Source: Akkermansia muciniphila | Lineage (GTDB): Bacteria; Verrucomicrobiota; Verrucomicrobiia; Limisphaerales; BJHT01 | DNA: 64,000 nt | Reading direction: 5' to 3' | Assembly: GCA_945861535.1 (NCBI GenBank) | Contig: CAMAUZ010000001.1 | Location: 62,001 to 126,000, forward strand | Shown: positions 43,265-53,316 of the stretch, piece after piece | Layout: the number at the start of each line of letters is the position of its first letter | Numbering within the stretch: the first letter of the stretch is position 1 | Made by a program: the position numbers and the translations under genes | Notes under the pieces: model-generated | Told to the model about the DNA's origin: nothing | The model's input: only the letters and a program-made list of their open reading frames with translations | Databases searched by the model: none

Positions 43265-43951
43265 ATGAAAACTCTCCTCGCACTCGGCGCGCACTACGAT
43301 GACTGCATCTTCGGCATTCCCGGGATTCTCCTCCAAGGCGTCCGCAAACACTACCGGGTCGTCGTGCTCTCCCTCATCGGTGACTACACCAACTGGGCGC
43401 CAGCCAGGGGCCGCGCCGCCGAATTCGTCGAAGGCACCCGCCGCCTCGCGTTGGAGCGCGGTGTCGAGATGCGCTTCCTGAACTTCGCCTCGCACCGCTT
43501 CGATGCACGACTCGAAAACAAGCTGCTGGTGGCCCGTGCCGTCGCGGAAATTAAACCCGACGTGGCCTTCACCCTCTGGAAGGATGACCATCACAACGAC
43601 CACGTCGTCGCCTCCGAACTCACCCGCGTGGCCGTGCGCAACGCCGGACAGATGCTGGAGGGAGTGACTTACCAACCGCCCGGCCGTCTCTATCTCTACG
43701 ACAACGGGCCCCGCCACACGATCGGCTTCACGCCCGACACCTACGTCGATGTGACTGACACCTGGACCGAGGCGCAGGACTGGCTCGGCGCACTCATGGC
43801 GCTGAAGGACAACCGGCCCCATGACCCCACAAAACCCGATGGCGCCAAGCAGGCGAAGGAAACGCTGGCCCGGTATCGTGGCACGTCCTGCGGCGTAAGA
43901 TATGCCGAGGCGCTATGGCTCGGACTCCCCCGCGCGGTGGAGCTCTTGTAA
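43265..43951 (+). CDS. PIG-L-family deacetylase
   Basis: The 228-residue protein from ATG 43265 has the LmbE/PIG-L layout. The zinc motif, usually PHPDDE, reads A-H10-Y-D12-D13-C: both Asp and the His are kept, so zinc binding (H10, D13) and the base (D12) remain, but the final Glu is Cys. The second motif is LWKDDHHNDHVVASE, supplying the third zinc His. The family removes acetyl groups from N-acetylated sugars such as glucosaminyl-inositol. No signal peptide. The next gene follows after 20 bp. Confidence 0.88.
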   Translation: MKTLLALGAHYDDCIFGIPGILLQGVRKHYRVVVLSLIGDYTNWAPARGRAAEFVEGTRRLALERGVEMRFLNFASHRFDARLENKLLVARAVAEIKPDVAFTLWKDDHHNDHVVASELTRVAVRNAGQMLEGVTYQPPGRLYLYDNGPRHTIGFTPDTYVDVTDTWTEAQDWLGALMALKDNRPHDPTKPDGAKQAKETLARYRGTSCGVRYAEALWLGLPRAVELL

Positions 43952-43971
43952 TTCCCGACCACCTTTCCCCA

Positions 43972-45033
43972 ATGCTCACCACCTATCGCACGCTAATCGC
44001 CTTAGCCCTGTTAAAACTTCCCGTGCTTAGTCACGCCGCCGAACCGCCTGCGGCAGGCACGGCCCCGGAAGCTGTGGTATCCCCAGCCGCCCGGGCACTA
44101 GCCTGGCCCACGCTGGAGTGGAAAAAGGGCGCGCCGTCACCGTGGGCACGGGTAGAGTCACCGACCGCCGTCGTGGGCGGGAAACTCTACTTGTTCGGCG
44201 GCTTCACCGACACGCTGGCCGCCTCGAACCAGCTTGATGTCCATGATCCGGTGAGTGACACCTGGACACGGAAACAAGACATGCCGACGCGGGTCACTCA
44301 TCTTAATCCTGCCCTCGACGGACTTACCATCTGGCTCGCCGGAGGTTTCAAAGGCAAACATCCCGGCCCGGTCACTAATGAAGTGTGGAAGTATGATGTC
44401 ACTGCGGACACCTGGACCGCCGGGCCGCCATTGCCGGAGCCGCGCGCGGGCGGAGGCCTCGAAGTCGTCGGGCGTCGGCTCCACTACTTCGGCGGCTACA
44501 AATCCGACCGTCAAACTGACTCCGGCGATCACTGGAGTCTGAACCTTGATGGCGGAAAAACCTGGGAACGCGAAGCGGACCTGCCCACCCCGCGCGGCCA
44601 TCTAAGTTCCGCTGTGCTCGACGGCAAGCTTTACGCCCTCGGCGGCGCTCACGGCCATGATAAGACCCAGAACGATCTCAACCCCTGCCATCGCTTCGAT
44701 CCCGCGACTAAGAAATGGACACAGATCGCCAGCCTGCCCGACGGCCGCAGTCACTTCGAGTCCAGCACCCTCATCCATCAGGGCCGCATCCTGATCGTGG
44801 GTGGCCGCTGCAACCAATCCAAGCCCCCGCGCAATGTCGTAGGGGATTTGTTAGAATATGATCCCAAGACCGATGCCTGGCGCATTGTCGGCGACTTACC
44901 TGTGAAAGTCCTTTCCCCATCCGCGGCCATCATCGCCGGTCGCCTCATCGTCACCGGCGGTGGCCTGAACAACCCCCGCCCCCTCACCGCCGCCACCTGG
45001 ATTGCGCCCCTTCCGACCCAGCCAGTGCGCTGA
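43972..45033 (+). CDS. Exported Kelch-repeat protein
   Basis: ATG 43972 gives 353 residues with a signal peptide (LIALALLKLPVLSHAAE). The rest consists of about six Kelch blades of 45-60 residues: VVGGKLYLFGGFTDTLAASN, VGRRLHYFGGYKSDRQT, LDGKLYALGGAHGHDKTQND and HQGRILIVGGRCNQSK, each followed by a W-x-x-x (or A-W) strand. Together they should form one beta-propeller. Some verrucomicrobial Kelch proteins resemble N-acetylneuraminate epimerase, and a neighbour is a sugar deacetylase, so a sugar-related role is possible. Confidence 0.85.
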   Translation: MLTTYRTLIALALLKLPVLSHAAEPPAAGTAPEAVVSPAARALAWPTLEWKKGAPSPWARVESPTAVVGGKLYLFGGFTDTLAASNQLDVHDPVSDTWTRKQDMPTRVTHLNPALDGLTIWLAGGFKGKHPGPVTNEVWKYDVTADTWTAGPPLPEPRAGGGLEVVGRRLHYFGGYKSDRQTDSGDHWSLNLDGGKTWEREADLPTPRGHLSSAVLDGKLYALGGAHGHDKTQNDLNPCHRFDPATKKWTQIASLPDGRSHFESSTLIHQGRILIVGGRCNQSKPPRNVVGDLLEYDPKTDAWRIVGDLPVKVLSPSAAIIAGRLIVTGGGLNNPRPLTAATWIAPLPTQPVR

Positions 45034-45404
45034 CTGCGACTTGCCCGAAACTATCCAGTCGGTGGGTGATCTACAGACCGGAGAGGCGTGTGTGCTGCAA
45101 CGGGAGAGCGAAACTCCATTCTATCGTTCACCCACATCTCCAGTGTGGACATCAATGTCCAATTGGGTGGCGGCGGGCGTTGTGGGTGGTCGTTTCGGGG
45201 GCCTGGTCGCCGTCGGGTTCGGACTGCCATCGAGCCACGCCGCCGAGTAGGGACTCCTCGCAATTTGGTTCCCCTCCCATCCCACCCGGTCGCTCGGCTA
45301 ATTAAGTTCCCACGGGCAGCCATTTTGAGATAGCCATTTTCGGATGGCTTCCTCATAATGTCAGGGCAGGAAGAAAACATGGTGTGCTAAATGGAAGGCT
45401 AAAA
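45034..45404. other. Intergenic, nothing recognised apart from a ribosome-binding site
   Basis: The 370-base space before the giant protease lacks the inverted-repeat elements found in most other gaps. A small imperfect palindrome (CCACATCTCCAGTGTGG) near 45127 is too short to interpret. I cannot place a promoter with confidence. Confidence 0.45.
45393..45398 (+). promoter_or_regulatory. Ribosome-binding site deciding the start of the giant protease
   Basis: GGAAGG lies six bases before ATG 45405. This favours ATG 45405 over the GTG at 45384, which opens the frame slightly earlier. Confidence 0.6.
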
Positions 45405-48400
45405 ATGAAACTACTTACCCGACTATCTACCTACAATTCGGCGACGAATTCGTTCCTTGCCACTGGTATTTCCGCCGCCGAATCCCCGACCGAAAAAGAC
45501 TCTCTTCCCGTGCCGACACGGGTGGGAACGATTGCCCGCGGCGTGGAGCTTGGTTCTGGCGGAACAGTCGTGGGCAACGCTCCAAGTTGGCGGCGGACTT
45601 GGCTGTTGGCGGGGTTTCTATGGTTCGCCGTGTCCTTCCCACTCGGCGCAGTGCACGAGCCGGAGCACCCCCGCTTGCCTAACTTGGATGCGCGAATCGC
45701 TGCGAAACCGGTCACGGTGGGGCAATCGAACGCCGTGGTGAATCTGCGCGCCCGGCTACCGCAGGCGGCGGTGCAGTTTGATCTGCTCACGGGATCGCCC
45801 AAGTTGATTCTGGCACGCGACGGATTTCTGAGTGGTAAGAATGGCCTGGGGCGGGGTGTTTCGGCGGCAGCAGTGCGGGCCTTTGCCCCGGGTGATCCGC
45901 TTCTGCCCACCAAGGCATTTCTTCAGGAGCACCGCGGTTTATTTGGTCACGGACCCGAGGCGCTGGGGGCGGCCAGGATCACGCGGGATTACGTTGCGAA
46001 ACACAACCGCCTCCACACGGTGATCTGGCAGCAGCAGGTGGATGGCATCCCAGTGCATGAGGGGGTGCTGATGGCGCATACCACGGCGAAAGGAGAGTTG
46101 GTGAACCTGGCGAGTCGTTTTCTCGCCGATCCAGTTCGCGCGGCGAACAACGGGACTTCTAATCGCGCTGCGCTGCTGGCCAATCCCGGCATCACGCCGA
46201 GACAAGCGATTGCCCTCGCGGCTGCCGCGGTGGGAGAAACCGTGACTGCGACTGCTGTCATGGCGGTGGAAGCCCGGTCGAGCGGCGCCGAGAAATACCA
46301 GCGCTTCCGCCATCCCCGGTTGCCGGGCGAAACCCACGCGCGTTTGGTTTGGTTGCCGCTGAACGGGACGGCCTTGCGGCTATGCTGGGACATCGTGCTG
46401 ACGAGCAAACAGCGTGGGGAGATGTTCCGGTTGTTGGTGGATGCGGCTTCCGGCAAAGTGCATGTTCGCCAAGGATTGACCGAGTATATCAGTGACGCGA
46501 CCTATCGGGTTTACACTTCCGACAGTCCGTCACCCTTTTCGCCCAGCCATCCCACGCCGCAGACCAATCTGCCGCCGCTGGTGGCCCGTTCGTTGGTCAC
46601 TCTCAAGGCGCTTAATCTCACCGCCTCACCCAAGGGCTGGATCTACGATGGCTTGAATGAAACCCTGGGTAACAATGTGGACGCCCACCTTGACATTAAC
46701 AGCGACGATCAGCCGGACCTGCCGCGCCCGCAAGGCTCTCCCTTCCGGGTGTTTGATTTTCCCCTGGATCTGACCAAGCCGCCGAGCGCCTATCAGGACG
46801 CGGCGGTGGCGCAGTTGTTCTACTGGTGCAATTTCATGCACGACAAACTCTACGAGCTGGGTTTCACGGAGGCGGCAGGCAATTTCCAGACGGAAAATTT
46901 CAACCGGGGCGGCGTGGGCAATGATGCTTTGCAGGCGGACGCGCAGGATGGTGGCGGAGTGAACAACGCCAATATGTCCACACCGCCAGACGGGCTGGCA
47001 CCACGGATGCAGATGTATGTCTTCGACCACCCGGCACCGGGCCGCGATGGTGATTTGGACGCGGAGGTCATCATTCACGAATACACCCACGGGCTGAGCA
47101 ACCGGCGCGTGGGTGGGGGCGTTGGTATCAGCGCCTTGCAGACCGCGGGCATGGGCGAGGGTTGGTCGGACTTCTATGCCCTCGCGCTGCTGAGCCAGTC
47201 AGGGGACAACGTAAACGGGAATTATGCCATTGGCGGCTATGTCCTGCAAGACTACTACGCTGGCATCCGGCGCTTTCCCTACTCGACTGATCGGACGATC
47301 AATCCGCTGACGTTGAGAGACATTGATCCCAGCTCCGGCAGCACCAACGCTTCCGGCCAGGTGCATAACCAGGGCGAGGTCTGGTGTGTGATCTTGTGGG
47401 AAGCGCGGGCGAATTTGATTAGCAAGTACGGGTGGGCGGTGGGCAATCAACTCATCCTGCAATTGGTGACTGACGGGATGGAGCTTTGCCCCGTCAATCC
47501 TAACTTTATCCAAGCGCGGGATGGCATCCTTCAAGCTGATTTGATCAATAGCGGCGGGGCCAATCAGAGCGAACTCTGGGCGGCGTTTGCCAAACGTGGC
47601 ATGGGTATCAACGCCGTTACTCCGGAGAGCTACACCACCTTCGGCGTGGTGGAATCGTTCGATCCCGCGGATGCTTTGCGAATCCAGCCGGATCTCAGTT
47701 TTGTGACCAGCGGCGGGCGCGGCGGCCCGTTCCAGCCGGTCAGTCAGAGTTATACCTTATCAAATGCTGGCCCGAGCAGTCTGAGTTGGACCGCGGCCAA
47801 GACCCAGCCGTGGGTCAGTGTGTCAGCTTCCAACGGTGCCCTTGCGCCGGGCGAGGTCATCACCGTCACCATTTCCCTGAGTGATACGGCGGCAACCTTG
47901 AGTTCTGGGGGTTACTCGGATACCGTCACCTTCACTGACTTAAGCAGTGGAATTTCCCTGACCCGCGCCGTTCGACTGACGATCAACCCCAGTTTGACCG
48001 AAGCCTTGGATGACCCGAATCGCACCTGGATAACCGGCGGGAGCGCCCCGTGGACGGGACAATTTGTAACTACGCACGATGGTTTGCATGCCGCCGAGAG
48101 CGGCCCAATCAGCGATCGTGAGGAGTCCTGGATGGAGACCACGGTAGCCGGCCCTGGAGCGCTCAGTTTCTGGTGGAAGGTTTCTTCAGAGTCCAACTTC
48201 GACAACCTCAGATTCTATGTGAATGGATCGCAACAGGGTGTCGGCATCTCCGGTGAAACTGACTGGCAGCAGTGGACGGTCGATCTCCCATCCGGAAGCC
48301 AAACCCTGCGCTGGCAATACTCCAAGGATTTTAGCTTCAGCCGGGGTTTGGACCGCGCTTGGGTGGACCAAGTCCTATTGAGCCAGGCTCCCTCAGTGAG

Positions 48401-51400
48401 CACCGGGGATGCCACCCTCATGGGCAGCAGCGCGGCGACCTTCAACGGTTTGGTCAATTCGCACGGCCTTGTCACAGCGGTGATGTTTGAGTACGGGCTG
48501 ACGACAAACTATGGGAACAGCGTGATGGCGATACCGTCGCCGGTGTTTGACAGCGTCTCTGTGGCTGTCAGCGCCGCAGTCAATGGGCTGACGGCGGGCG
48601 TGACTTATCATTATCGAATCACAGCCGCCAACAGTGAGGGCAGCAGCGTGGGCGCGGACGCATTCTTTGTTCTGCCTGTCGATCTGGCAGCGGCCTTGGA
48701 CCTGCCGGGGCTGATTTGGAACACCGGTGGCGGCGCTCCGTGGATGGTGCAGACCAATGTGACGGTGGATGGGGGATACGCCGCGCAGAGTGGTGCCATC
48801 GGAGTTGGTGAGGAGTCATGGATGGAAACCACGATCATGGGTCCGGGAGTGCTCTCCTATTGGTGGAAGGTCTCCTCGGAGTCCGGGTTTGATTATTTGG
48901 AGATCTATCTCAACGGCGTGTTACAAAACGGCCGTATTTCGGGCGAGGTGGACTGGCAATTGCAACGCATCGAGCTGCCTGCGGGACCTCAGACGGTGCG
49001 CTGGCGCTATGTCAAAGACGGCGCCGTCAGCGGCGGGAGTGATAGCGCCTGGGTGGATCAGATCACTTTCATCCCGATGCCCTATGTTTTCACTGGCCCG
49101 GCCTCGCCGATCACCAGCACCGAGGCGACGCTCAACGGGTTCGTCAACGCCAACGGCAAGAGCACCGTGGTGACATTCGAATATGGAGAGTTTCCGATGT
49201 TGGACAACATCGTGACAGCAGTGCCATCTCCAGTGGTGGGCAGCGACACCACCAGTGTGAGTGCGGTGATACGCGGTCTGAGGCCGGACACTTACTATGC
49301 CTATCGGTTAAAGGGGGTAAACCGGAACGGAGCCGGCACTGGCAGTTACGAGATTTTTGTAACGCCGTCTCCGGGGCCTATCGTTACCACGGATAGTGCC
49401 ACGGCGGTGACGGCTTCCGGCGCCACTCTCAATGGGATGGCAAACGCCAATGGCAAGCCCACCGCGGTGACGTTTGATTATGGGTTGACCATTGATTACG
49501 GCAGTACGATTACGGCGGAGCCTTCGACGGCGACCGGTCTCACCAACACCAGTGTCAGCGCGATCGTGACCGGCCTCATGCCCGGCCGGACCTATCATTA
49601 CCGGATCCGAGGCGTGAACGAAGATGCCACCACCACGGGCGCGGATGCGACGCTGACCGTCGGAGTGGAACTGGCCGAAGCTTTGGATACCCCGGGGCGG
49701 ACTTGGACAATGGGCGGGGATCTCCCGTGGGTGGGCCAAGTTGCGGTTACCCTCGACGGCGTTGATGCCGGCCAGAGCGGCACCATTCGGAGCGGTCAGG
49801 AATCTTGGATGGAGACAACTGTCACCGGACCCGGGTTGCTTTCCTTCTGGTCAAAGGTTCCCGCCGAGTTCGGGTTCGATTCTTTGGAATTCTCGGTAAA
49901 CGGTGGGCTGCAATCCGTTAGCTTCGGCGGTGCCTCGGACTGGCGGTACCAAAGCCTCAGGCTGCCGGCTGGGAATCAGACCTTGCGCTGGCGTTACGTA
50001 AAGGACCCTGGTTTCACCAGTAATCCGAGCTCCGCCTGGGTGGATCTGGTCAGTTTCAGCCCGGACATCCAGTTAGTCTGGGGTGCGATTTCTTCACCTC
50101 AGGTTGTGGGAGTGCCCTTTGCGGTCACCATTTCCGCAGCAACGCCGGACGGACTGGCAACCAATTTCACGGGACCGGTGAGCCTCAGTGGCCTGATTGC
50201 CGGTGAGGGGACCAACAACACGTTGCTCGGTGGTGTTTCCCGACCCGAATCCGAAAACAGTGGCACCTTTACTCTTGGCTATTCGTTTACCCCAAACGCC
50301 GATCTGGTGGTGACTCATGTGCGCCATTATGCCGGAACGAAAGTATCGCTTTGGACCGAGAGCGGCACGTTGCTCGCCGCCCGCGAGGTCGTGAGCGTGC
50401 CAGAGACTTGGGTGGAGACACCGCTCGCCACATCTGTCTCGCTGACTGCCGGAGCGACCTATCGTGTGGGTGTGCTGACCGGCGGCGATCGATATTATTT
50501 TGGGTTTGATCTGCCGGGGATATTTACGGATGGAACCATCGTCCAGAGTTACCATTCCGAGACTGATCGGTTTCCGGATATCAGCAATGGTCTCCGCTGG
50601 CCGTTCGTCGATCTTCGCTACACTGTCGGAACTTCGCTGCCAGTGGCCATTTCGCCCATGGTGTCCGGCAATTTTGTGAACGGGGTCTGGACAGGCAATG
50701 TCACAGTACTCGCGGCGGCGACCAACCTGTCGCTGCTGGCGGACGATGGCAGCGGACATGCCGGCAACAGCAGTCCATTTTCAGTAATCAACGCACGGGT
50801 GCCGCAAGTGATCACCTTTTCACCCGTGCGAGACCGGGTGCAGGGTGAGGCGTCGTTTGAGTTGCTCGCGACGGCGAGTTCGGGGTTGCCGGTGTCTTAC
50901 ACCGTGACCACGGGAGTGGCGACGGTGACCGGTAGTGTGGTCAGTGTCACCGGACCCGGCACGGTGACGATCCGGGTCACGCAGGCGGGGAACGGAAGCT
51001 ATCTGGCGGCACCGGCGGTGGAACGGAGTTTCAGCGTGGTCAATCCAGCGGTGCAATTGGCAGGGACGTTGAGTGGCCCGAGGTATGGGCACACGGCTAC
51101 CCGGTTGCTGGACGGAACTCTAGTGGTGGTCGGCGGCACCAATGGCAGTGCGGCGCTCGCAACGGCGGAGTGGTTCAATCCGTCCGCAGGGGTGTGGGTG
51201 GCGAAGGGCAGCATGGCAACGGGTCGCTACCGACACAGTGCGACGTTGCTCGCGAATGGGAAAGTATTGGTGGTCGGGGGAACGACGACCGGGGCGAGTC
51301 TGACGACGGCGGAGCTATACGATCCAGCCACCGGTAGGTGGAGTGCGACCGCGGGGTTAAGTGCCGCGCGGCAGAATCACGAGGCGGTGAGACTGCCGGA

Positions 51401-53087
51401 TGGCCGGGTGCTGGTGATGGGTGGACGCGGGGCCGCAGGAGTGTTGCCGACCACGGAGATATATGACCCGGTGGCCGGCTCGTGGCGGCCGGGCTTGAAC
51501 ATGATTGCGGCGCGGGAACGATTCCCCGCGACCCTGCTTGGTGATGGGACGGTATTGGTCGCGGGTGGCAACGGAGCGGGCGGGGTGCCGCTCGCGGGGA
51601 CGGAGATTTACTCATCAGTCATGGGTACCTGGAGTGCGGCGGGTGGTCTGGCGGGGGCGCGGTTCGGGCATACGGGGACCTTGCTGCCGGATGGGCGCGT
51701 GTTGGTGGCGGCTGGCATGGGATCGGCCGCCGGCACGGCGCTCGCAACGGCGGAACTCTATCAGCCCGCGACGCGCACCTGGGCGGTCACCGGGAGTCTG
51801 ATGACGGCGCGACATTCTCACTTTGCCGTGAGTTTGTTGGATGGGCGCGTGCTGGCTGGAGGTGGCTTCAATGGGGCGGTGATCCAAAGTCTGGAGATGT
51901 TTGATGCCGCGAGCGGGCGTTGGACGGTGGCGGGATACCTCAATGCGGCGCGGCGGTATGCGACGGCTAATCTGCTGGATGACCGGCGGGTGCTGATTGC
52001 CGGCGGACTGACTGCGACCGGAGCGACCCAATCGACGGAGTTTTTCCTGCCGGTGATTGGTGCCTTTGTCAGGGATGGTAGCCTAAGTCTGGCGCGCTAT
52101 TCGCATACGGAAACTTTGCTGGCCGACGGTCGGGTGTTGGTGGCTGGCGGAGTAGGAAAAGGCCCCGTGATTCAATCATCGAGTGAGACGAGTGATGCGG
52201 AGGGGGAGGTGTGGACGCGGCGGGGTGATATGATTCAGCGTCGGTTTGGGCACGCGGCGGCATTGCTGGGGAACGGGCAGGTGCTGGTCGTCGGCGGCAA
52301 GGATGTTGGTTCGCTGGCGAGCGCGGAGTTATTCGATCCGGCCGGTGGAATGTGGCTTACAACGGGCTCGCTGCGGACACCGCGCCGTTATTTGACGGCG
52401 ACGACACTCAGTGATGGGCGGGTGCTGGTGGTGGGCGGGGTTGATCCTTCCGGAAGATATCCGGCCGGGGCGGAATTGTATGATCCGATCACCCAAGTAT
52501 GGAGTGACGGACCAAGCTTGGCGGCGGGACGTTTCTATCACACGGCGACCAAACTGGCGGATGGGCGGGTGTTGGTGGTGGGTGGAATCGGCAACGGTGG
52601 ACGGCTGCGGAGCGCGGAGTTGTTCCACCCGGTCACCGGTGCCTGGACGACAGTCGGGAGCACGAGTGTCGGGCACGAGCGGCACTCGGCGACGCTGCTC
52701 GACGACGGGCGCGTGCTGGTGGCGGGCGGCTTCGGTGACGCCGGGGCGCTGACGACGGCTGAGTTGTTCAATCCCGCGACTGGGACTTGGAGTGTGATCG
52801 GCCGGTTGCGGATGGCACGGGGCGCGCATACGGCCACGATGCTGGGGAGCGGGCGGGTGCTGGTAACTGGCGGCAGCGGTGGCGATGGCATCACCCTGTC
52901 ATCACTGGTGACGGCCGAAGTCTTCAATCCCATTTCAGCGAGCTGGGGACTGACCGGGGCGCTCGGGACAGCGAGGCATAATCACAGGGCGGTCTTGCTC
53001 AACAACGGACGGGTGCTGGTTACTGGCGGCATCCAGACTCCAGCCAACAACACGCTCTCGACCACGGAGCTGTATTTCAAACCGTAG
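45405..53087 (+). CDS. Giant exported M36 (fungalysin-type) metalloprotease with CBM/Fn3-like modules and 14 Kelch repeats
   Basis: 2560 residues. A hydrophobic export segment (WRRTWLLAGFLWFAVSFPLG) begins late, near residue 65. It is followed by a propeptide (about 90-360) and the M36 catalytic domain (about 390-745) with H558-E-Y-T-H562 and the third zinc ligand E585 in GMGEGWSDF. Next come a beta-sandwich (about 765-865), three copies of a WWKVSSES-type carbohydrate-binding or MAM-like module, interleaved with three Fn3-like domains (FEYGLTT-x-YG ... YHYRI), two further beta domains (about 1556-1880) and 14 Kelch units (DGRVLVVGG pattern) from about residue 1883 to the end. Secreted and probably surface-associated; the substrate is likely protein. 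No sorting motif is visible at the C-terminus. Confidence 0.93.
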   Translation: MKLLTRLSTYNSATNSFLATGISAAESPTEKDSLPVPTRVGTIARGVELGSGGTVVGNAPSWRRTWLLAGFLWFAVSFPLGAVHEPEHPRLPNLDARIAAKPVTVGQSNAVVNLRARLPQAAVQFDLLTGSPKLILARDGFLSGKNGLGRGVSAAAVRAFAPGDPLLPTKAFLQEHRGLFGHGPEALGAARITRDYVAKHNRLHTVIWQQQVDGIPVHEGVLMAHTTAKGELVNLASRFLADPVRAANNGTSNRAALLANPGITPRQAIALAAAAVGETVTATAVMAVEARSSGAEKYQRFRHPRLPGETHARLVWLPLNGTALRLCWDIVLTSKQRGEMFRLLVDAASGKVHVRQGLTEYISDATYRVYTSDSPSPFSPSHPTPQTNLPPLVARSLVTLKALNLTASPKGWIYDGLNETLGNNVDAHLDINSDDQPDLPRPQGSPFRVFDFPLDLTKPPSAYQDAAVAQLFYWCNFMHDKLYELGFTEAAGNFQTENFNRGGVGNDALQADAQDGGGVNNANMSTPPDGLAPRMQMYVFDHPAPGRDGDLDAEVIIHEYTHGLSNRRVGGGVGISALQTAGMGEGWSDFYALALLSQSGDNVNGNYAIGGYVLQDYYAGIRRFPYSTDRTINPLTLRDIDPSSGSTNASGQVHNQGEVWCVILWEARANLISKYGWAVGNQLILQLVTDGMELCPVNPNFIQARDGILQADLINSGGANQSELWAAFAKRGMGINAVTPESYTTFGVVESFDPADALRIQPDLSFVTSGGRGGPFQPVSQSYTLSNAGPSSLSWTAAKTQPWVSVSASNGALAPGEVITVTISLSDTAATLSSGGYSDTVTFTDLSSGISLTRAVRLTINPSLTEALDDPNRTWITGGSAPWTGQFVTTHDGLHAAESGPISDREESWMETTVAGPGALSFWWKVSSESNFDNLRFYVNGSQQGVGISGETDWQQWTVDLPSGSQTLRWQYSKDFSFSRGLDRAWVDQVLLSQAPSVSTGDATLMGSSAATFNGLVNSHGLVTAVMFEYGLTTNYGNSVMAIPSPVFDSVSVAVSAAVNGLTAGVTYHYRITAANSEGSSVGADAFFVLPVDLAAALDLPGLIWNTGGGAPWMVQTNVTVDGGYAAQSGAIGVGEESWMETTIMGPGVLSYWWKVSSESGFDYLEIYLNGVLQNGRISGEVDWQLQRIELPAGPQTVRWRYVKDGAVSGGSDSAWVDQITFIPMPYVFTGPASPITSTEATLNGFVNANGKSTVVTFEYGEFPMLDNIVTAVPSPVVGSDTTSVSAVIRGLRPDTYYAYRLKGVNRNGAGTGSYEIFVTPSPGPIVTTDSATAVTASGATLNGMANANGKPTAVTFDYGLTIDYGSTITAEPSTATGLTNTSVSAIVTGLMPGRTYHYRIRGVNEDATTTGADATLTVGVELAEALDTPGRTWTMGGDLPWVGQVAVTLDGVDAGQSGTIRSGQESWMETTVTGPGLLSFWSKVPAEFGFDSLEFSVNGGLQSVSFGGASDWRYQSLRLPAGNQTLRWRYVKDPGFTSNPSSAWVDLVSFSPDIQLVWGAISSPQVVGVPFAVTISAATPDGLATNFTGPVSLSGLIAGEGTNNTLLGGVSRPESENSGTFTLGYSFTPNADLVVTHVRHYAGTKVSLWTESGTLLAAREVVSVPETWVETPLATSVSLTAGATYRVGVLTGGDRYYFGFDLPGIFTDGTIVQSYHSETDRFPDISNGLRWPFVDLRYTVGTSLPVAISPMVSGNFVNGVWTGNVTVLAAATNLSLLADDGSGHAGNSSPFSVINARVPQVITFSPVRDRVQGEASFELLATASSGLPVSYTVTTGVATVTGSVVSVTGPGTVTIRVTQAGNGSYLAAPAVERSFSVVNPAVQLAGTLSGPRYGHTATRLLDGTLVVVGGTNGSAALATAEWFNPSAGVWVAKGSMATGRYRHSATLLANGKVLVVGGTTTGASLTTAELYDPATGRWSATAGLSAARQNHEAVRLPDGRVLVMGGRGAAGVLPTTEIYDPVAGSWRPGLNMIAARERFPATLLGDGTVLVAGGNGAGGVPLAGTEIYSSVMGTWSAAGGLAGARFGHTGTLLPDGRVLVAAGMGSAAGTALATAELYQPATRTWAVTGSLMTARHSHFAVSLLDGRVLAGGGFNGAVIQSLEMFDAASGRWTVAGYLNAARRYATANLLDDRRVLIAGGLTATGATQSTEFFLPVIGAFVRDGSLSLARYSHTETLLADGRVLVAGGVGKGPVIQSSSETSDAEGEVWTRRGDMIQRRFGHAAALLGNGQVLVVGGKDVGSLASAELFDPAGGMWLTTGSLRTPRRYLTATTLSDGRVLVVGGVDPSGRYPAGAELYDPITQVWSDGPSLAAGRFYHTATKLADGRVLVVGGIGNGGRLRSAELFHPVTGAWTTVGSTSVGHERHSATLLDDGRVLVAGGFGDAGALTTAELFNPATGTWSVIGRLRMARGAHTATMLGSGRVLVTGGSGGDGITLSSLVTAEVFNPISASWGLTGALGTARHNHRAVLLNNGRVLVTGGIQTPANNTLSTTELYFKP
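51055..53085 (+). repeat. Fourteen in-frame Kelch repeats encoded in the giant protease gene
   Basis: Each unit is about 48 codons and encodes ARxxHTATLLxDGRVLVVGG followed by a TAELYDPATGxW block. I count 14 DG-x-VLV-x-GG cores. Fourteen would suit two seven-bladed propellers, though this is an inference from number only. Confidence 0.85.
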
Positions 53088-53316
53088 AGTTGGTGCCGGC
53101 CGCCGCCCGGCCCGGGCTGATGGGGGAACAGGGCCGGGGGGCTGGCTGGCTCCAGGATGGGCTTATCGCAGGGGCTATGTCGTATTCAGGCGGGCCGGGC
53201 GATACCGTCAACCGGAGTACTTGGAGCGCGGGGTGTGGGCCGGGAAATGGCTTGGAAACCAGGGGGTGGCTGCGAAGGATGCGGCCCGTTTTTTGTTTCA
53301 GTCTTAGAACACACGT

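Follow-up and report, generated by a model that had tools for sequence, protein, structure and literature searches.

The closest described systems resemble the protein analysed here in different parts. The Aspergillus metalloprotease Mep (4k90) is like it in the M36 catalytic domain and the zinc motifs, and the bacterial long-tailed M36 proteins of NCBIfam NF038111, NF038112 and NF038113 share both the catalytic domain and long C-terminal tails with it. The secreted VesC protease of Vibrio cholerae also joins a protease to a MAM/CBM-like beta-sandwich, and for its C-terminal domain its authors report structural similarity to meprin, receptor phosphatase mu and reelin (PMC7771236). Meprins, which are secreted or surface proteases, carry a sandwich of this kind as well. 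However, VesC and the meprins belong to other protease clans, have one such domain instead of three and lack a Kelch array. A natural 14-blade protein, Nostoc WRAP, folds as two seven-bladed rings (PMC9218822). It is like the present array in having 14 blades in one chain and two rings (predicted here), but it is a STAND ATPase protein with near-identical blades (PMC9218822), whereas neighbouring units in the array described here are about 41% identical. Literature searches on M36 with Kelch, fungalysin in Verrucomicrobia and Kelch repeats in Verrucomicrobia found nothing relevant.

In the 64,000-nucleotide stretch of DNA that was analysed (the window), the gene is one open reading frame with no internal stop, on the forward (+) strand as are all of its parts located below, at 45384-53087 from a GTG or 45405-53087 from an ATG. 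The ATG start gives a protein of 2560 aa, and residue numbers throughout count from it. The single chain contains an M36 zinc protease, a BACON-like Ig domain, three MAM/CBM-fold modules, three Fn3-like domains, DUF4082 and 14 Kelch units. With a probability of about 0.8, this is a secreted multi-module M36 zinc metalloprotease with a tail that ends in two seven-bladed Kelch propellers and holds the enzyme on its target; both the export and the targeting role are inferred. The protein would be exported as a zymogen and its propeptide then removed, and the M36 domain would cut protein outside the cell. The tail (Ig, MAM/CBM-fold, Fn3, DUF4082 and the two Kelch propellers) would keep the protease at a target that is polymeric or bound to a surface and may be protein, glycoprotein or polysaccharide. 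On this reading the combination arose when modules circulating in this verrucomicrobial order were shuffled. Within its genus the entire gene is a presence/absence locus. It is the single M36 gene of its genome. There is no sign of foreign origin by composition, with a GC3 of about 0.71 for the gene and 0.66-0.86 for its neighbours.

The M36 (fungalysin-type) assignment of the preliminary description is borne out. Residues 402-737 (46608-47615) match Pfam PF02128 with an E-value of 3e-115 and a score of 386 bits against a curated threshold of 23.3, and they align over the full length of the domain to Aspergillus Mep (E 4e-80). Both zinc-site motifs, HEYTH at residues 558-562 (47076-47090) and GEGWSD at residues 584-589 (47154-47171), are intact and are kept in this alignment. 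A weak FTP propeptide motif is found at residues 193-235 (45981-46109; PF07504 E 0.0012), and its 19.1 bits are marginally under the cut-off of 21. The protein scores far under the full-length cut-offs of NF038111-NF038113, with 402 against 885 for the T9SS-dependent, 357 against 1500 for the myxosortase-dependent and 335 against 1700 for the rhombosortase-dependent model.

The tail has three domains in addition to those of the preliminary description, namely a BACON-like Ig domain, a DUF4082 block and a probable Ig-like stretch. The BACON-like domain occupies residues 765-850 (47697-47954; Pfam PF19190 with E 1e-4, which falls short of the curated cut-off). It is conserved directly after M36 in many relatives, and a similar domain is present in about 25 other M36 entries. 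The MAM/CBM-fold modules are located at residues 855-1000 (47967-48404), 1086-1230 (48660-49094) and 1414-1559 (49644-50081); modules 1 and 3 are supported by a local HMM and alignment A1, and module 2 by its predicted structure and fold matches. The three are copies of one module, with copies 1 and 3 being 53% and 51% identical to copy 2. No Pfam family covers the module, and none of its 29 members has a Pfam MAM match. The structure of module 2, predicted from an alignment with 29 relatives, has a pLDDT of 94.6. Its best solved fold match is the C-terminal domain of VesC (6bqm; Z 16.0, rmsd 2.8, 127 aligned), followed by meprin MAM domains (meprin alpha Z 12.7 and below), neuropilin, reelin, gingipain cleaved-adhesin domains and many CBMs. 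The earlier term "CBM/MAM-like" is therefore right as a description of the fold, from which the adhesive role given to the modules in the preliminary description is an inference. A 3571-aa verrucomicrobial frame elsewhere (L011:10028-19495) consists in part of 22 tandem copies of the module.

Fn3-like domains 1, 2 and 3 lie at about residues 1000-1088 (48402-48668), 1235-1320 (49107-49364) and 1325-1412 (49377-49640). The third has a Pfam fn3 match of E 9e-9; the first is similar to the other two copies and alone gives a weak fn3 match (E 0.005), and the second is similar to copies 1 and 3 with a weak Fn3-family match. The DUF4082-containing block spans about residues 1556-1795 (50070-50789). 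The Pfam match lies at residues 1615-1698, PF13313 matches the isolated block with an E-value of 5e-11, and blocks about 50% identical to it occur in the tails of other M36 proteins. The linker at about residues 1800-1882 (50802-51050) is probably Ig-like; it had no match in a Pfam search, and similar stretches are found in L148.

The Kelch array was counted at exactly 14 units and runs to the C terminus, and the span given for it in the preliminary description (1883-2560) is correct to within a strand. The units start at residues 1891 to 2522 with a spacing of 47-52 aa. Kelch_1 scores 203 bits against a threshold of 20, and overlapping Kelch families match with E-values down to 2e-61. The unit count, the comparison of arrays and the model place units 1-7, the first predicted seven-bladed propeller, at residues 1883-2228 (51051-52088) and units 8-14, the second, at residues 2229-2560 (52089-53087), ending at the stop codon. 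In the model of the array, which was built from one sequence and has a mean pLDDT of 54, most structural matches belong to one of two groups. Model residues 348-685 match galactose oxidase and the seven-bladed PLL lectins (Z 22-24), whereas model residues 1-351 match other propellers (Z about 20-21). The array thus appears to divide at unit 7/8, and the halves match separate propellers. Duplication of a whole propeller was also considered as the source of the 14 units and is unsupported, as units compared at lag 7 are just as similar as units compared at lag 1 (identity 0.415 in both cases).

Two seven-bladed propellers, as proposed in the preliminary description, are the best reading of these data. 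The alternatives, a single large ring or a division other than 7+7 (6+8, for example), find some room in the model, which is weak at units 7-8 and too weak to fix the blade count of the first ring, but they are improbable in view of the other arrays. All 22 regular arrays that were compared have either 7 or 14 contiguous units. These are eleven arrays of 14 (the one in the window included), an extra 7 in L136, the two 7s of L156 and eight single-7 proteins, among them L143 and L145, both with weak last units; a few divergent proteins with 5-7 irregularly spaced units were left out and have no bearing on the comparison. In L156 the two sets of seven are separated by a linker. Among the first 13 units of the 11 arrays of 14, it is regularly unit 7 that diverges most; its mean rank by profile score is 3.0, a value that none of 20,000 shuffles reached. 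In addition, the last unit stops at one and the same place in 7- and 14-unit arrays, before its final strand, as would be the case in a ring that is closed by the N-terminal strand. Regular Kelch arrays in this order thus come in sevens, which allows 14-unit proteins to be read as twin propellers. It is still less likely that the array serves as a catalytic domain (galactose-oxidase/GlxA or NanM type) and not as a binding module. GlxA and glyoxal-oxidase models do match the Kelch units and galactose oxidase is among the top fold matches; however, the matches track the shared Kelch repeat, and the NCBIfam GlxA model gives 124 against a cut-off of 800. Copper radical oxidases (AA5) require a Cys-Tyr cofactor, and residues 1883-2560 contain zero Cys and hence no such cofactor.

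Because the same fusion is present in no second genome of those sampled, the assembly might be suspected of having joined an M36 gene to an unrelated Kelch gene, but such a chimera is very improbable. The frame is a single open one of 7.7 kb whose GC3 stays even (0.66-0.74) between residues 63 and 2560, a chance join would need to be in frame, the host contig is 225 kb long and both flanks are syntenic with the same-genus genome G001. For the N terminus, the preliminary description noted a late signal segment and suggested either a different start or an extended signal. The hydrophobic segment is real, at about residues 64-82, and VHEPEHPRLPNLDAR comes next. A GTG at 45570 (residue 56) yields MGNAPSWRRTWLLAGFLWFAVSFPLGA, by inspection an ordinary signal peptide (45570-45650), followed by VHEPEH. 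In homologous M36 proteins a short signal peptide stands immediately before a PxLPNxDxR-type mature start (e.g. ...GQEVGA-FKESERDPLPNIDVR). Because the signal peptides of these homologues directly precede the same kind of mature start, the mature protein would begin at about residue 83. Codons 1-56 have a GC3 of 0.55, compared with 0.66-0.74 in later segments, and the 55 codons upstream of the GTG look non-coding. The true start is therefore probably GTG 45570, which would account for the late position of the hydrophobic segment, and of the two earlier suggestions the different start is favoured over the extended signal. Translation from ATG 45405, with a long N-terminal extension and an internal signal or anchor, is less likely. 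This codon has a good Shine-Dalgarno-like GGAAGG 7 bases upstream, a better box than that of the GTG; against it stand the low GC3 of its first 56 codons and the homologues' short signal peptides, which end at the same place.

M36 proteins are present in 67 of the 320 genomes of the order and are mostly 1100-2800 aa long with varied tails. The comparison set comprises 83 distinct M36 proteins besides that of the window, of which 67 have a complete C terminus. Its coverage is good for this order and very slight for other phyla. Of the features in the long tail, a MAM-like module is found in 13 of the 83, while Kelch units, which form the end of the protein described here, are found in none. As the protease core and the MAM-like module are shared with relatives, the Kelch ending is a private feature of this protein. 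In a tree of M36 domains it groups weakly with L063 (family f6), and the distribution is patchy. The architecture had been called uncommon, and this is correct for the combination and not for the parts, since relatives also have long M36 proteins with many modules, Kelch arrays of 14 units and the MAM-like module, each of them recurrent. By sequence comparison, then, the M36 and Kelch combination is new among the sampled genomes, while the kind of protein is not, and the gene documents a new pairing of enzyme and propeller.

Other 14-unit Kelch proteins of the order (L133, L135, L139, L134 and others) have units of about 48 aa, the same end point as the window protein and best stretches 45-50% identical to it. 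None has M36. In its place L134 (L134:2515-6288) has a kumamolisin-type protease (Pro-kuma_activ E 4e-25, GTS motif), which is unrelated to M36, and its last 670 residues are 14 Kelch units that reach the C terminus, as in the window protein. L140 and L142 combine a MAM-like module with 7 Kelch units and no recognised protease, and L152 has 7 Kelch units and then an FGE-sulfatase domain. The same parts are therefore combined in many different ways in the order. No Kelch relatives were found in viral contigs. A separate 2288-aa protein (L136:5861-12724) has 14 + 7 Kelch units and then Ig, MBG and NHL repeats.

Most complete M36 relatives (59 of 67) end in an FYR-type domain of about 75 residues, with the ending FYR(V/A)xxP or similar, and the same domain is found on many Kelch proteins, e.g. 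L133, L137 and L142. It has no significant Pfam or NCBIfam match and is a candidate sorting or anchoring domain in the order. Together with the MAM/CBM-fold module it makes two widespread unnamed modules on many secreted verrucomicrobial proteins. The window protein does not have the FYR-type domain, so its release, export or anchoring may differ. A tentative suggestion is that in this order tandem double Kelch propellers could be a C-terminal cassette for targeting that is portable between proteins. It would have been added on separate occasions to secreted proteases of unrelated types (M36 here, the kumamolisin type in L134), where it would replace the FYR-type domain and so set the location or exit of the protease.

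A blastn comparison of the window with L168 (G001:C247) showed that the block at 45035-53238 is absent from G001, where both flanks are side by side. The DNA similarity ends at 45034, beside the left gene's stop codon, and begins again at 53239; in G001, 9 bases separate these two points. The left neighbour protein is 80% identical and the right 96%. Since the flanks adjoin in G001, the whole gene and its upstream region form an 8.2-kb presence/absence block, which holds only this gene and lies between a Kelch gene and an epimerase-like gene. The block ends were scanned for direct words of at least 8 bases and inverted words of at least 9 bases; none is shared and there is no transposon sign. 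The region upstream of the open reading frame is not a genomic repeat. The comparison with G001 is compatible with either gain or loss of the block, and the empty-site pair offers a way to ask what difference it makes to acquire or lose a protease of this kind. The gene just upstream (43915-45033) encodes a separate Kelch protein that has weak NanM-like matches and is 80% identical in the same genus.
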